DNA of 64,000 nt from Acetivibrio saccincola. Lineage in GTDB: Bacteria > Bacillota > Clostridia > Acetivibrionales > Acetivibrionaceae. Shown piece after piece: positions 25,338-30,712 of this stretch (the stretch's first letter is position 1; each line of letters opens with the position of its first letter). A program made the translations under genes and the position numbers. The DNA lies in the NCBI RefSeq assembly GCF_002844395.1, contig NZ_CP025197.1, positions 434,001 through 498,000 on the forward strand, in the 5' to 3' direction. The notes under the pieces are model-generated. The model was not told the origin of the DNA, made no database searches, and saw nothing but the letters and a program-made list of their open reading frames with translations.

Positions 25338-25670
25338 TTAAATATTTTACCAAAAAGAATAACCGTTGTATTTTTATTTGACCAGAAAATAGATTCTGAA
25401 CAGTTAAAGGACAGGTTGGTAAAAATGATAGAGATATTAGGGGACCTGTCGGAAGAGGAATTTGGTTTATTTAAAGGTTGGCTAAAATGGATATTAAAGC
25501 CGAGGATATCAGAAGAATTGCGTTTTAAGATAGATGACATACTGGAAAAATCGTGATCTACGGAGGTGGAAAGTATGGTTTACAATCTTGCCAATACAAT
25601 TGACGAAATGACTCAAAGAGCTACGGAAAAGGGAATAAAATTGATAATGCAAGTAACTAATGGTTGCTAA
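25338..25670 (+). pseudogene. remnant of Rpn/PD-(D/E)XK nuclease-like gene
   Basis: Two pieces: KRITVVFLFDQKIDSEQLKD with EEFGLFKGWLKWILKPRISE up to a TGA at 25554, and MVYNLANTIDEMTQRATEKG from 25575. The second piece resembles the helical C-terminal tail (MV.NL..TI.EM...A...G) of Rpn-type recombination-promoting nucleases. The catalytic N-terminal part is missing. Confidence 0.45.
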
Positions 25671-25842
25671 GACGAGATTTACATAAAATATGATACTATT
25701 AAAAATAGATTTAGATTCCGTCTTTATAAAAGGACATGACGGAGACCACCTTATATTTATGTATGGATCTGGATATGATAGAACATTACTTCCGGGGTAT
25801 TGAGGATCTGTAGAAAACCCTCGAATTTTTTTATAATAGTTA
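25671..25842. other. AT-rich spacer before the DUF5320 promoter
   Basis: Contains short open pieces (for example KIDLDSVFIKGHDG) that may be further debris of the nuclease-like gene. No intact gene. Confidence 0.4.
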
Positions 25843-25894
25843 TTGACATATGTCAAAAACATAGTGTATAATATAAAATAAATGACATATGTCA
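25843..25894 (+). promoter_or_regulatory. promoter bracketed by two TGACATATGTCA palindromes
   Basis: TTGACA at 25843-25848, an 18-base spacer and TATAAT at 25867-25872. A perfect 12-base palindrome TGACATATGTCA covers the -35 box (25844-25855), and an identical one lies just behind the -10 box (25883-25894), 39 bases apart. This is a classical two-operator repression layout. The regulator is unknown; the DUF134 protein encoded two genes downstream is the nearest candidate. Confidence 0.8.
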
Positions 25895-26004
25895 GAAGCA
25901 CATATTTTAATGGCATGCCATGGGAAAAAAGACCTGGTGACAGTGGCCAGGTACAGGTATTAAACTGCAACGGAAAATAAAAATAACACAAAGGTGGTGA
26001 AATT

Positions 26005-26313
26005 ATGCCAAGAGGAGACGGAACGGGGCCTATGGGAATGGGTCCGGTGACAGGACGAGGCGCAGGTTTTTGTGCCGGTTTTACAGCTCCGGGCTATGCA
26101 AATTCAGCAGGAGGATTCGGCCGGGGAAGAGGATTTAGACGGATGTTTTGTGCTACCGGCTTGCCAAGATGGGTGCACTGTGGAAACCAGAATGAAAAAG
26201 GGGCATATTTTGCATCAGATGCTGATGAAAAGGAGTTCCTTAAAAATCAGGCTAAATTTCTTGAAAGCCGGCTTGACAGTATAAAAAAGCGCCTTGAAAA
26301 ATTTAAAGACTAG
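26005..26313 (+). CDS. DUF5320-type glycine/methionine-rich small protein
   Basis: 102 residues. MPRGDGTGPMGMGPVTGRGA is the typical start of DUF5320 proteins. A glycine/arginine-rich middle (GGFGRGRGFRRMF) and a helical charged end (EKEFLKNQAKFLESRLDSIK) follow, which looks like a coiled coil. Such proteins travel with NifX/NifB-type, Mrp-type and DUF134 genes in anaerobes. Function unknown; a role in iron-sulfur or other metal cluster handling is inferred from neighbours. Strong AAGGTGG site. Confidence 0.8.
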   Translation: MPRGDGTGPMGMGPVTGRGAGFCAGFTAPGYANSAGGFGRGRGFRRMFCATGLPRWVHCGNQNEKGAYFASDADEKEFLKNQAKFLESRLDSIKKRLEKFKD

Positions 26314-26330
26314 TCCTGTTACAAATTAAA

Positions 26331-26350
26331 AGGCAGGCTGTTGCCTGCCT
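26331..26350 (+). promoter_or_regulatory. intercistronic hairpin
   Basis: AGGCAGGC and GCCTGCCT with a four-base loop, without a T tract. It may be an mRNA-stabilising or processing stem between the DUF5320 and DUF134 genes. Confidence 0.5.
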
Positions 26351-26404
26351 TGCAACAATGTGCAGCCAGATACCTGGTATTGTAAGAAGTGAGGTGAATA
26401 AAAT

Positions 26405-26758
26405 ATGCCAAGGCCGATAAAGTGGAGAAAAGTATGCAGCCTGCCTGAAAGCAACAAGTTTGGACCTCTTGATTTAAATGTGGGCGGTGAACACTGTGTA
26501 AAGATGACTGTGGATGAATATGAAGCCATAAGGCTTATTGATTTAGAGGGTTTTACCCAGGAAGAGTGTGCCAGGCAGATGAATGTGGGACGTACCACTG
26601 TTCAGGGTATTTATGCAGAAGCAAGAAAGAAAATAGCCCAGTCGCTGGTAAATGGGAAAATACTTTTAATAGAGGGCGGCGAATACAGGCTTTGTGAGGG
26701 ACTTGGAAACGGATGCGGACGGGGGTGTCGCAGACGCGGCTATAAAAGAAATTTATAA
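26405..26758 (+). CDS. DUF134-family helix-turn-helix protein
   Basis: 117 residues. [20 protein letters not shown] is the DUF134 signature start. [20 protein letters not shown] leads into the helix-turn-helix [20 protein letters not shown], a sigma-70 region-4-like reader. It ends in a cysteine/glycine-rich tail ([12 protein letters not shown]) that could bind metal. Members sit beside Mrp and DUF5320 genes; this one could bind the TGACATATGTCA palindromes upstream (inference). Ribosome site GAGGTG. Confidence 0.85.
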
Positions 26759-26796
26759 AAAGACAGTGGATTTGATGTTTGAATAAGGAGAGAATT

Positions 26797-27621
26797 ATGA
26801 TTATAAAAACACTGGCGGAAAACACATCCATATCAAAGAAATTTGGCAGTGAGCACGGCCTTAGCCTTTATATAGAGGTAAATGATTGTAAAATTTTATT
26901 TGATACCGGGGCAAGTGAACTGTTTTTTGAAAATGCAAAAAAGATGGAAGTTGATATTTCTCATGTAGATTATTTATTAATTTCCCATGGCCACTACGAC
27001 CATGGCGGGGGACTTGAGGCTTTTTTTCGTGAAAATACAAAGGCACAGGTTTTTCTTCATCCATTGGCATTTGGAAAATACTATGCCCTGCGATCAAATG
27101 ATAAATTTGAGTATATTGGCTTAAAAGAAGAACTAAAAGAAAACAGTCAAATTGTATTTACGTCAAATAATTTTGTTATCAGGGACGGCATACGGGTGTT
27201 TTCAAATATTACCAAAACAGAGCCGCCTCCGGCATCAAATAACAGACTGTATATGGAGGAAAAGGGTAAAATGATTCAAGATACCTTTCTCCATGAGCAA
27301 AATCTTATAATTGAAGAGAATGAAAAAAACTTTTTAGTGGTAGGCTGTGCACATAACGGCATTACAAATATTTTGCAGCATTTTTATAATTTAAAAGGGT
27401 GTATGCCTGATTATGTAATAGGGGGATTTCATCTTTCCAACCGTTCAGGAGAAGACAACGAAAGCCTTGACACTGTAGGCAGGATAGGCAAATTTTTTAT
27501 GGATACCAATGGAAAATATTACACCTGCCACTGTACAGGTATAGAACCCTATAAAAGACTTAAAGCTGTTATGGGGGATAGGATTGGTTATCTGTCAGCA
27601 GGAAGTGAAATAAAAATTTAA
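26797..27621 (+). CDS. metallo-beta-lactamase-fold hydrolase
   Basis: 274 residues from ATG 26797, chosen for AAGGAGAG 6 bases before it. The metal motif LISHGHYDHGGGLEAFF sits around residue 65, with later VVGCAHNGITNILQH and GGFHLSN, and a C-terminal TCHCTGIEPYKRLKAV. The pattern fits the subfamily often annotated as dihydropterin-ribofuranosyl-aminobenzene phosphate synthase-like, found beside Mrp and NifX-type genes in anaerobes. Actual substrate unknown. Followed directly by a minisatellite. Confidence 0.8.
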   Translation: MIIKTLAENTSISKKFGSEHGLSLYIEVNDCKILFDTGASELFFENAKKMEVDISHVDYLLISHGHYDHGGGLEAFFRENTKAQVFLHPLAFGKYYALRSNDKFEYIGLKEELKENSQIVFTSNNFVIRDGIRVFSNITKTEPPPASNNRLYMEEKGKMIQDTFLHEQNLIIEENEKNFLVVGCAHNGITNILQHFYNLKGCMPDYVIGGFHLSNRSGEDNESLDTVGRIGKFFMDTNGKYYTCHCTGIEPYKRLKAVMGDRIGYLSAGSEIKI

Positions 27622-27919
27622 AGCAGGTAAAATACAATTAAAGCGGTAAAATACAATTAAAGCGGTAAAATGCAATTAAAGCAGGTAAAATACAATTAAA
27701 GCGGTAAAATGCAATTAAAGCAGGTAAAATACAATTAAAGCGGTAAAATACAATTAAAGCGGTAAAATGCAATTAAAGCAGGTAAAATACAATTAAAGCG
27801 GTAAAATGCAATTAAAGCAGGTAAAATACAATTAAAGCGGTAAAATGCAATTAAAGTGGTAAAATAAAATTAAAGCAGGTAAAATACAAGCAAAACCGGT
27901 AAAATACAAGTAAGTTCAA
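27620..27919 (+). repeat. 15-unit minisatellite between MBL and mrp genes
   Basis: Tandem 19- and 20-base units of the form AAAGC(A)GGTAAAATRCAATT: thirteen clean or near-clean and two degenerate at the right end. Unit types a (AAAGCAGG..TAC), b (AAAGCGG..TAC) and c (AAAGCGG..TGC) run a-b-c-a-c, a-b-c-a-c, a-c and so on, so two copies of a 97-base higher-order repeat stand head to tail (27620-27716 and 27717-27813). It contains the last bases of the upstream stop codon. Confidence 0.9.
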
Positions 27920-27962
27920 AATTAAGCACAACAAAATTATAAGAAAAAGGGGAGCTAAGATT

Positions 27963-28844
27963 ATGAGTGAAAAATGTAATCAAGGTTGTGGCAGTTGCAC
28001 AGAGAACTGTGCAGAAATAAAAGAAAATGCAGAACAAGAAAGAAATGCAAAGTTAAAAGAAAATGCAAAATCTAAAGAAAAGCACAATGATTTTTCCGAA
28101 AAACCCCATGAAATGAGCAGAATCAAAAAAGTTATTGGGATTGTAAGCGGTAAGGGAGGTGTGGGTAAATCCCTGGTAACCTCCATGCTTGCAGTTACAA
28201 TGAAAAGGCTGGGTTATAACAGCGCTGTTTTAGATGCGGACGTTACAGGACCTTCAATTCCAAAAGCCTTTGGTATCAAAGAAAAAGCATCAGGCTGTGA
28301 ATTTGGACTGTTCCCTGTTAAAACCAAGACAGGTATTGATATCATGTCCATTAATTTACTTTTAGAAAATGATACCGATCCTGTGGTGTGGAGAGGACCT
28401 ATAATTGGCAATACAGTAAAGCAGTTCTGGACGGATGTTATATGGAGTGATGTGGATTTTATGTTCATTGATATGCCCCCGGGAACCGGCGATGTACCTC
28501 TTACGGTGTTTCAGTCCATTGCCGTTGACGGGATTATCATTGTTACTTCGCCCCAGGAACTGGTATCAATGATTGTATCAAAAGCAGTTAAAATGGCTGA
28601 GCTTATGCATATTTCTATCATTGGTCTGGTGGAGAATATGTCCTATTTTAAATGTCCGGACTGTGGCGGCAAACACAAAATTTTTGGGGACAGCCATATT
28701 GACGAAATTGCCCAAAAGCACAATTTAAAGGTGCTTGCAAAAATTCCAATTGATCCGAAGATCTCTGCTGCCTGTGATAAAGGCATGATAGAGCTATTTG
28801 AGGGCAATTGGCTTGACCCTGTTGCAAAGATATTAGGGGGTTAA
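27963..28844 (+). CDS. Mrp/NBP35-type iron-sulfur carrier ATPase
   Basis: 293 residues. An N-terminal cysteine cluster (CNQGCGSCTENC, residues 5-16) and a charged lysine/glutamate linker come first. Then a deviant P-loop ATPase of the MinD/Mrp family: SGKGGVGKSLVTSM near residue 62, DADVTGPSIPKAFG, and DMPPGTGDVPLTVFQ. A CPDCGGKHKIFG loop near residue 238 is the usual bridging cysteine pair. Mrp proteins carry and insert Fe-S clusters in the cytoplasm. The gene is fourth in the DUF5320-DUF134-MBL series but separated by the minisatellite. Start behind AAAAAGGGGAG. Confidence 0.9.
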   Translation: MSEKCNQGCGSCTENCAEIKENAEQERNAKLKENAKSKEKHNDFSEKPHEMSRIKKVIGIVSGKGGVGKSLVTSMLAVTMKRLGYNSAVLDADVTGPSIPKAFGIKEKASGCEFGLFPVKTKTGIDIMSINLLLENDTDPVVWRGPIIGNTVKQFWTDVIWSDVDFMFIDMPPGTGDVPLTVFQSIAVDGIIIVTSPQELVSMIVSKAVKMAELMHISIIGLVENMSYFKCPDCGGKHKIFGDSHIDEIAQKHNLKVLAKIPIDPKISAACDKGMIELFEGNWLDPVAKILGG

Positions 28845-28860
28845 TGTAGTATGCTGATAG

Positions 28861-28900
28861 ATAGTGCTTACATCATAAGGTGTAGGTACTATTTATTTTT
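28861..28900 (+). terminator. terminator after mrp
   Basis: ATAGTGCTTACA pairs with TGTAGGTACTAT (10 of 12) around an eight-base loop and is followed by TTATTTTT. Confidence 0.7.
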
Positions 28901-28999
28901 ACATATAAAGAAAAAAGTATAGGCAGATAAAAATACTGCGTTCCCGTTGAACTTGCGACGGACCGGCAAATATCATCTCCCGCAAAACTATACAATATA

Positions 29000-30712
29000 C
29001 TATTGTTTTAATTCTTCATGGCGCTTAATTTTTTTTGTTGTTGTTTTAATAAACTCCTCTTCCTGAATGCTGATTTCCTTAACATGTTTATAACTTACCA
29101 GAGCATTATTTACATTTCTAACCTCTTTTTCAATAATCTTTTCCACAGATTCATCCGGGATAAGGTTATTTTCTTTATCTTCTTTTATTTTGTCGATATC
29201 GGGAACTATTTTTACACATATTACTGTATCGCCGTCAGACTGGCCTTTTCCATAAACCAAAGACTCCTTGATATACGGGCTTCTGTTTAACAAAGTTTCT
29301 ATTTCCTCAGGGAAAACATTTTTTCCGTTTCCGGTGATAATTACGTTCTTTTTGCGTCCGGTAATATGAATGAATCCGTCTTCATCGAGAAAACCGCTGT
29401 CACCTGTGTAAAACCATCCGTCCCTGATAGCTTCTTTTGTGGCCTCAGAATTTTCGTAATAGCCCAGCATAACATTTCCGCCTTTACACTTAATTTCACC
29501 GATGCCGTCTTCATCAGGACTGTCAATTTCAACCCGGACATTTGGAAGTGGCAGTCCGGCAGCCTCATCTTTATAGTAAACATCACGGTTTAGTGCAACT
29601 ATAGGAGCACATTCAGTAAGACCATATCCTTGTATTAATGATATACCAAGTTCCCTAAACCCCTTAGCTATCTGAGGGTCAATACCTGCAGCACCGCTGA
29701 TTAGCAGCCTTATATGCCCGCCTAAAGCCTCATGAATTTCTTTGAATATTTTTTTGCGAATATCAATTCCAATTTTAGCTAAAGCATTGCTAAGCTTAAT
29801 TGCAAACTTAATCTTTTTCTCTCCCTTTGATTTTATGGCCTTGTTCATTATTTGACGGTACATGGATTCAAAAATCAAAGGCACTCCCAACATAATTGTA
29901 GTCTTGGATTCTTTAAGGTTTTTAACTATATGACGTAATCCTTCACAATATGCAATGGTACAGCCCCTGTATATCTGACACAAAAAACCGCAGGTACATT
30001 CATAGGTGTGGTGAATAGGGAGCACTGATAAAAATGTATCCTTTTCATCAATATAAACCATGGAACACATACCTTTTAAATTTTCCACTATATTTTTGTG
30101 AGACAGCATAACAGCCTTGGCAGTGTCGGTAGTTCCAGAAGTAAAGAGAAGTATGCTCATTTCTTCAGCATCTATTTTTGTATCAATAAACTCACGTCTT
30201 CCTTCTTCTAAAAGTTTATGCCCCTTTTGTAAAAGTAAATGGAATGATAATATGTTTCCCTGGTTTTCTTCCCTGTCCATACTGATAAAATATCTTATGG
30301 AAGTGTCTTTTTCACAAAGAGGCTCTATTTTATCCCTGACACTGTCTGAGTAGATAATGGCATCTGCCTTAGAGCGTTTTAGAAGTAGTTCAATTTCGTT
30401 TGCAGGAAGTTCTTTATCTAAAGGCACAATAACCCCTGTCCCGTTTACAGCTGAAAGATATGTGATAGACCATTCATAGCGATTTTCACCTATTAGAGCA
30501 ATTTTCTTATTTTTAAGTCCAAGGTCAATAAAAGCCGTTCCCATGGCGTCTACATCGGATTTATACTGTTTATATGATATGGGAAAATATTGGGATTTGC
30601 CCTTTGGTTTTGATAAAAAAGCCGCCTTGTCCCCGTATATCTCCGCACTGGAATTTAGCATATCCTTTAAATCCTTAATAGGTCTTACTTCATATAACTT
30701 ACTGTTTTTCAT
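29000..30712 (-). CDS. AMP-forming acyl-CoA synthetase (FadD-like)
   Basis: 570 residues of the adenylate-forming enzyme family. The phosphate-binding loop is LLFTSGTTDTAKAVMLSHKN, where the usual G-x-P-K is altered. VLPIHHTYEC follows, then IRLLISGAAGIDP, IQGYGLTECAPIV, GWFYTGDSGFLDEDGFIHIT and GRKKNVIITGNGKNVFPEEI. The C-terminal lysine region is KTTTKKIKRHEE. It activates a carboxylic acid, most likely a fatty acid, to its CoA thioester in the cytoplasm. Monocistronic on the minus strand, with a GGAGG-type site (AGGTAAAATT) before the start. Substrate not deducible. Confidence 0.88.
   Translation of the reverse strand: MKNSKLYEVRPIKDLKDMLNSSAEIYGDKAAFLSKPKGKSQYFPISYKQYKSDVDAMGTAFIDLGLKNKKIALIGENRYEWSITYLSAVNGTGVIVPLDKELPANEIELLLKRSKADAIIYSDSVRDKIEPLCEKDTSIRYFISMDREENQGNILSFHLLLQKGHKLLEEGRREFIDTKIDAEEMSILLFTSGTTDTAKAVMLSHKNIVENLKGMCSMVYIDEKDTFLSVLPIHHTYECTCGFLCQIYRGCTIAYCEGLRHIVKNLKESKTTIMLGVPLIFESMYRQIMNKAIKSKGEKKIKFAIKLSNALAKIGIDIRKKIFKEIHEALGGHIRLLISGAAGIDPQIAKGFRELGISLIQGYGLTECAPIVALNRDVYYKDEAAGLPLPNVRVEIDSPDEDGIGEIKCKGGNVMLGYYENSEATKEAIRDGWFYTGDSGFLDEDGFIHITGRKKNVIITGNGKNVFPEEIETLLNRSPYIKESLVYGKGQSDGDTVICVKIVPDIDKIKEDKENNLIPDESVEKIIEKEVRNVNNALVSYKHVKEISIQEEEFIKTTTKKIKRHEELKQ

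Follow-up and report, generated by a model that had tools for sequence, protein, structure and literature searches.

DUF134 as a candidate autorepressor at a pair of identical palindromes, with a recognition helix resembling that of sigma region 4

The DUF134 protein encoded in the analysed window (the whole 64,000-nucleotide stretch of the Acetivibrio saccincola genome) is, judging from sequence and model comparisons, very probably a local dimeric autorepressor that would read its DNA in the manner of sigma region 4. Two identical palindromes, TGACATATGTCA, lie around the promoter of its gene series. Pairs of the same palindrome adjoin DUF134 or its partner genes in other genomes, and the letters of the sites track residues of the DUF134 recognition helix, so DUF134 itself is the probable binder. 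The first-pass annotation had proposed that the palindromes serve a dedicated dimeric repressor and had put DUF134 forward as a good candidate for an autorepressor. The proposal is supported by both observations, and the evidence exceeds it: the covariation between residues and bases allows the partner protein to be identified with good confidence.

The palindrome pair, the promoter and the gene series

The two exact copies of TGACATATGTCA were located at 25844-25855 (candidate operator site 1, 14 bp with its flanks, TTGACATATGTCAA) and 25883-25894 (candidate operator site 2), 39 bp from start to start, which confirms the earlier description of two identical palindromes 39 bases apart around one promoter. 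The -35 hexamer TTGACA (25843-25848, forward strand) is also the left half of palindrome 1 and is followed after an 18 bp spacer by the -10 hexamer TATAAT (25867-25872, forward strand). The resulting promoter agreed with the sigma70 consensus in all 12 positions and was the top one among 18 promoter-like sites in 25500-29100. Site 2 begins 10 bp past the -10 box, just 3' of the presumed start site, and would cover approximately +4 to +15 if transcription starts 7 bp beyond the -10. The complete genome (3,604,547 bases) contains no exact copies of TGACATATGTCA other than these two, and the window search with up to two mismatches gave no further match. As the shuffled window yielded on average 3.28 matches at up to two mismatches, single near-matches carry little weight and the evidence lies in the exact repeated pair.

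Four genes on the forward strand follow the pair, each over its own Pfam cut-off. The DUF5320 gene (26005-26313, 102 aa; PF17253, 108.7 bits) is followed by the DUF134 gene (26405-26758, 117 aa), the product of which belongs to DUF134/UPF0251 with a PF02001 score of 77.9 bits against the cut-off of 27, covering profile positions 6-96 of 98. The third gene encodes a metallo-beta-lactamase-fold (MBL) protein (26797-27621; PF00753, 43.3 bits; the start codon is uncertain and the listed ORF opens at 26779). The series ends with the gene of an Mrp/NBP35-type P-loop ATPase (27963-28844; PF10609, 292 bits). DUF5320, DUF134 and MBL, and possibly Mrp, would be transcribed from the one promoter. As second gene behind the palindromes, DUF134, the putative regulator gene, is placed under its own candidate operators. 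Between the MBL and Mrp genes a tandem array was also noticed (27618-27913), with units of 39, 58 and 97 bases, all of them composed of AATTAAAGCGGTAAAATACA-like repeats.

Repression is suggested by the positions of the sites. One DUF134 dimer is expected per palindrome, each of its subunits placing its helix-turn-helix (HTH) recognition helix in a half-site. With one palindrome on the -35 and the other past the start, occupancy would block RNA polymerase and turn DUF5320-DUF134-MBL(-Mrp) off. For the ARTTVQG helix the half-site equals TTGACA, and DUF134 would rival sigma at the -35 element of its own promoter. An alternative is that DUF134 binds and activates, or does both depending on its metal state; some HTH regulators work both ways. 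However, both sites overlap what RNA polymerase needs, one the -35 hexamer and the other the first bases beyond the start, and a promoter already at 12/12 consensus should make an activator needless, so this alternative is regarded as improbable in comparison with simple repression.

Recurrence of the pair and of its variants

For the comparison of genomes, the exact pair was defined as two copies of TGACATATGTCA with 12 to 42 bases between them. It was detected in 4 of the 58 genomes of the order, own genome counted, and in a scan of 84,980 species genomes at least 120 stretches carried it. The titles of those listed include Clostridia, Bacilli, Synergistaceae, Spirochaetales, a Flexilinea and a Deltaproteobacterium. 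The first-pass annotation had named absence of the palindrome from relatives as a result that would speak against it; such absence was found inside the family, where all 13 other genomes lacked the exact pair, but not beyond, the pair being present across many genera. The same annotation had suggested a search for the palindrome before DUF5320, DUF134 and Mrp genes in the genome and its relatives, and the outcome was in its favour: 112 of the 120 stretches listed adjoin DUF134 or its partners (DUF5320, Di-Nase/NifX, Mrp, MBL) within 1.5 kb, a count in which many DUF134-Di-Nase fusions were scored as NifX, whose query scored higher. Six of the remaining stretches end at a contig edge and two (L074, L089) look unrelated. 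In 95 of the 120 listed the DUF134 gene is at most 900 nt away. The copy spacings of the listed stretches cluster at 33-34 and 38-39 bp; since the clusters are about half a helical turn apart, a fixed contact between two bound dimers is disfavoured.

These counts also bear on whether the pair could be a chance or structural inverted repeat that serves no regulator. Near-matches are indeed frequent in the window, as the shuffles indicate, but a specified 12-mer pair would be expected only about 0.03 times in 257 billion bases (an estimate for even base composition) against the at least 120 stretches found, and the same gene set recurs at 112 of those 120 listed. With these comparative data a chance origin is hardly credible.

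The exact 12-mer as the sole search was abandoned as too narrow, as variants occur at many DUF134 genes, and CATATG-cored pairs were used, defined as two sites with a CATATG core that lie no more than 1 kb upstream and are spaced 26-46 bp. In a class-level sample picked solely for DUF134 (101 distinct DUF134 domains), such a pair was found upstream of 39 genes; the next-best 6-base palindrome reached 6 and the shuffle mean was 0.06. The first site opens with TTGACAT in 35 of the 39. At the other 62 genes of the sample no CATATG pair was found within 1 kb; helix position 1 is S in 42 of these and A or G in 20, the latter being the pairless ones among the 52 genes of the sample with A or G at this position.

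Of 348 phylum genomes, 123 contained a general pattern, TTGACATATGN{20,40}CATATG, and 2 contained its reversed form. DUF134 matches (E 0.001) were obtained in 232 of the 348 genomes, comprising 117 of the 123 with the general pattern versus 115 of the 225 without it (Fisher p = 2e-19). A member of the set (DUF134, DUF5320, Di-Nase/NifX, Mrp or MBL) was present at 101 of the 124 general-pattern loci listed, and about eleven of the 23 listed loci without set genes show no palindromic flanks by eye; these are probably chance matches. DUF134 itself lies within 2.5 kb downstream at 54 of the 124 loci listed and does not at 70, a finding that favours another regulator and is weighed with the covariation below.

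Other helix types were associated with other sites. With SRxTFQ[NL] helices, 5 of 24 genes had TGGCAWWTGRCA sites, against 0.0 in shuffles, and these five all belong to the class sample; a search for exact palindromic dyads in this group gave nothing convincing, since its sites resemble TGGCATTTGACA. With SRxTFQR helices, GGGCATATG or its complement was present at 10 of 34 genes (shuffles 0.5). Pattern-selected loci are included in this group and in the ARTT group, and the CATATG counts are inflated there. Genes with SRxTF[GSH] helices, most of which belong to the phylum of a genome with the title Deltaproteobacteria, yielded a partial motif alone, GAGCATATG or its complement, in 5 of 25 cases (shuffles 0.15).

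The genome itself holds two further DUF134 copies. The second one (L004, genome positions 131915-132193) has an SRQTFQN helix and, by eye, a zinc-ribbon-like tail; it sits downstream of an Mrp gene, the promoter of which is flanked by TGGCATTTGACA and TGGCAAATGCCA. The third (L005, 3169072-3169179) has by eye decayed to a remnant, which is of the ARTTVQG type; one near-palindrome, reading TGACATACGTCA on the coding strand, overlaps a TTGACA that resembles a -35 box. Members of the family have also been annotated in halovirus PH1 (gp47, COG1342; excerpt of PMC3622292) and in a Bacillus pumilus phage region (excerpt of PMC8347963), which indicates that DUF134 also travels on viruses.

Some loci carried additional features. 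At L338 (G518) one DUF134 gene is preceded by two identical promoter-palindrome units 220 bp apart, and at L312 and L315 the same promoter type precedes a protein of 538-549 aa with cysteine motifs that by eye are like Fe-S binding sites. At L299, L370 and L401 the first ORF after a matching promoter belongs to a cluster that is Fur-like by eye, and a DUF134-Fur link is possible.

Covariation between helix residues and site letters

The correspondence between protein and DNA was determined with 70 DUF134 genes, the site flanks of which had not been selected for. Half-site positions were numbered from the dyad (right half A1 T2 G3 N4 N5 N6 N7) and residues as in the DUF134 protein of the window, the recognition helix of which comprises residues 62-70 (GRTTVQGIY; 26588-26614, forward strand). 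Of the 81 half-sites that go with Gly68, 66 have A at position 6 and 2 have C; of the 96 that go with Arg68, 63 have C there and 24 have A. Thr64 was accompanied by T at position 4 in 115 of 159 half-sites; with another residue at 64, C was found in 37 of 51, and the four ARSTVQG proteins had C at position 4 in 12 of 12 half-sites. Arg63 and Thr65 were present in all 320 sequences compared, a set that contains duplicates. Among proteins from the set with TGACATATGTCA pairs, 94 of 95 lack Arg68 and 90 of 95 have Thr64; the corresponding counts for the class sample are 52 and 47 of 101.

According to the corrected mutual information over 88 alignment columns, residue 64 was the top column for position 4 and residue 68 for position 6. 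At position 4 the z value of residue 87 (7.4) was slightly higher than that of residue 64 (7.1), though residue 64 leads in corrected information. The two-residue code is loose: 8 of the 32 Arg68 proteins had no majority of C at position 6, position 4 was mostly C in 11 of the 53 Thr64 proteins, and it was not so in 4 of the 17 proteins with another residue. In the proposed reading, Arg63 would contact the C:G pair next to the CATATG centre, residue 64 would help to set position 4, and residue 68 would set position 6.

Shared descent was taken into account with a relatedness tree that was built leaving out the helix, path-disjoint pairs of proteins being compared on the best tree regardless of branch support. 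For residue 68 and position 6, six independent pairs differed in the predicted way, none in the opposite way and one showed no difference (sign test 0.031); for residue 64 and position 4 the counts were 7, 0 and 2 (sign test 0.016). The crossed controls, with residues and positions swapped, gave 2, 2, 3 and 1, 2, 6. With only well-supported branches, 2-4 independent pairs remained, none of the results being significant.

The code was also used in the direction from DNA to protein. Residue 68 was predicted from the DNA alone for 37 genomes that have a site but no DUF134 within 2.5 kb downstream of it. DUF134 is encoded somewhere in 35 of the 37, with a copy within 5 kb of the site, mostly adjoining, in 17 of the 35 and farther than 5 kb or on another contig in 18. 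For all 31 genomes that could be scored, the prediction of Arg or another residue at 68 was right (27 Arg and 4 not Arg); DUF134 is more than 5 kb away or on another contig in 16 of them, with 16 of 16 calls right, and near in the other 15. The genomes share ancestry and are not phylogenetically independent. Three undecided sites, one genome with both Arg68 and Gly68 copies (predicted not Arg) and two genomes with no detected DUF134 were left unscored. Two of the scored genomes contained three extra matches over the cut-off, two of them with Arg68 (SRGTVQR, SRGTFQR) and the third, at 27.9 bits, not DUF134-like.

Against these results the possibility has to be weighed that the palindromes are bound by some other regulator, with its gene elsewhere, to which the DUF134 genes are only targets. 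The 70 listed loci with no DUF134 in the 2.5 kb downstream and the three loci with a first ORF in a Fur-like cluster fit such a regulator, and the CRP/FNR family is the obvious candidate. CRP/FNR proteins are unrelated to DUF134, and in CRP-type sites the spacer is free. The palindrome fits the CRP-type outline TGA-N6-TCA, and an E. coli CRP site quoted in an excerpt of PMC4655474 contains the same 12 letters as TGACATATGTCA. In the present sites, in contrast, the central CATATG is conserved and the flanking letters vary with the DUF134 helix. Furthermore, the site letters covary best, by corrected information, with DUF134 residues 64 and 68, do so in independent pairs and predict the protein from the DNA, and 35 of the 37 scanned genomes with a site and no DUF134 within 2.5 kb downstream encode one somewhere. 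Another regulator is therefore considered improbable, and DUF134 remains the preferred binder; the confidence in it was eased to the high level given at the outset because the prediction was in trans for a part of the genomes alone and because the sites have a CRP-like outline.

If the code is true, the G68R and T64S substitutions would shift the preference toward GGGCATATGCCC and TGGCATATGCCA, respectively, with GGACATATGTCC as a further comparison site beside TGACATATGTCA.

Fold, possible signal and significance

The predicted model of DUF134 had a mean pLDDT of 81, with helices at residues 36-47, 52-59 and 63-83. Its best structural matches were sigma region 4 domains, 5fgm (0.8 A over 47 residues) and 2h27 (0.9 A over 48 residues). 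The Foldseek E-values for sigma region 4 were weak (best 0.067), the VIA Z values did not exceed 7.3, and HTH folds are common; in VIA-align no family beyond sigma region 4 and the common HTH folds stood well above the rest. By Pfam profiles the protein was assigned to the sigma70 region 4 HTH group, with Sigma70_r4_2 at 27.7 bits against 25.7 (residues 35-77), while Sigma70_r4 at 22.9 was below its cut-off of 24.1. It cannot be classed as a sigma factor: the 117-aa protein gave no match to region 2 (Pfam, E 0.001), the region of sigma factors for core binding and -10 recognition.

In hhalign with two of the genome's own sigma factors, the DUF134 helix was aligned gaplessly to NVTRERIRQIEAKALRK with a probability of 90.7. 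In E. coli sigma numbering we take this alignment to pair Arg63 with R584, Thr64 with E585 and Gly68 with Q589. In TTGACAT the C at -31 is position 3 of the half-site, i.e. the C of CATATG. According to an excerpt of PMC2613000, R584 contacts -31 (C:G) and E585 contacts -33 of the -35 element. The base that covaries with residue 64, position 4 (-32), is one base off the contact of E585, and the register of DUF134 thus fits sigma region 4.2 closely, not perfectly.

The sigma70 region 4 domains are the closest solved folds to DUF134, and their -35 hexamer TTGACA is the DUF134 half-site. In comparison with sigma70, DUF134 is a stand-alone protein of 117 aa that has no region 2, is associated with palindromic sites, is probably a dimer and carries a cysteine tail. 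The best sequence match among solved structures was the HTH of DeoR (SorC/DeoR; PDB 7bhy, E 1.3e-4), limited to the HTH, the helix of which, ISRPTVSRLLQYAKEK, is similar to that of DUF134; as no C-terminal effector-binding domain was found in the 117-aa protein, it does not belong to SorC/DeoR. The UPF0122 proteins (1xsv, SAV1236) are also stand-alone proteins with a sigma-region-4-like fold (Z 6.0) and constitute a different family.

The C-terminal tail (26690-26755, forward strand) contains C97, C104 and C108. C104 and C108, together with C11, were at least 90% conserved among 56 DUF134 proteins. Extensions of at least 100 residues at the C-terminus were found in 69 of 297 DUF134 proteins, a set not deduplicated; the one extension scanned (L100) contained a Di-Nase domain (PF02579) followed by a His/Cys-rich end. 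Similar Di-Nase-like fusions with repetitive His/Cys-rich tails were seen in L071, L076, L058 and others, the domain being confirmed for L100 alone.

In excerpts of the literature, both the Mrp and the Di-Nase domains of Desulfovibrio MrpORP are described to bind Fe-S clusters (PMC6345978) and the orp operons to be sigma54 controlled (PMC3897727). The predicted DUF134 regulon likewise encodes Mrp ATPases and Di-Nase (PF02579) proteins; the MrpORP/Di-Nase proteins are carriers, whereas DUF134 is a predicted DNA-binding regulator. Metal or redox sensing by DUF134, as suggested in the first-pass annotation, is plausible. The conserved cysteines, the Di-Nase extension and the Fe-S binding in MrpORP favour a metal or an Fe-S cluster as the signal, a suggestion with roughly balanced chances of being right. 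Release from the operators would probably be triggered when a metal or Fe-S cluster is gained or lost, either at the cysteine tail or, for the fusions, at the Di-Nase domain.

No study of DUF134/UPF0251 as a regulator was found in the open-licence literature searched, and an excerpt of PMC7565180 calls DUF134 and DUF5320 proteins without known function. The present results propose a function and a target sequence for a protein family matched in two thirds of the sampled phylum genomes and join the DUF5320, Di-Nase, Mrp and MBL genes in one predicted regulon, and a testable protein-DNA code results from the covariation. Whether DUF134 proteins generally constitute a widespread group of sigma-region-4-like repressors, which would compete with sigma for the -35 element in the same register, by a code of largely two residues and two bases, and hold an Mrp/Di-Nase/DUF5320 regulon under Fe-S or metal control, is in our estimation evenly poised. 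If the sigma-like reading is true, DUF134 would be a clean example of a repressor that recognises a promoter hexamer as sigma does.
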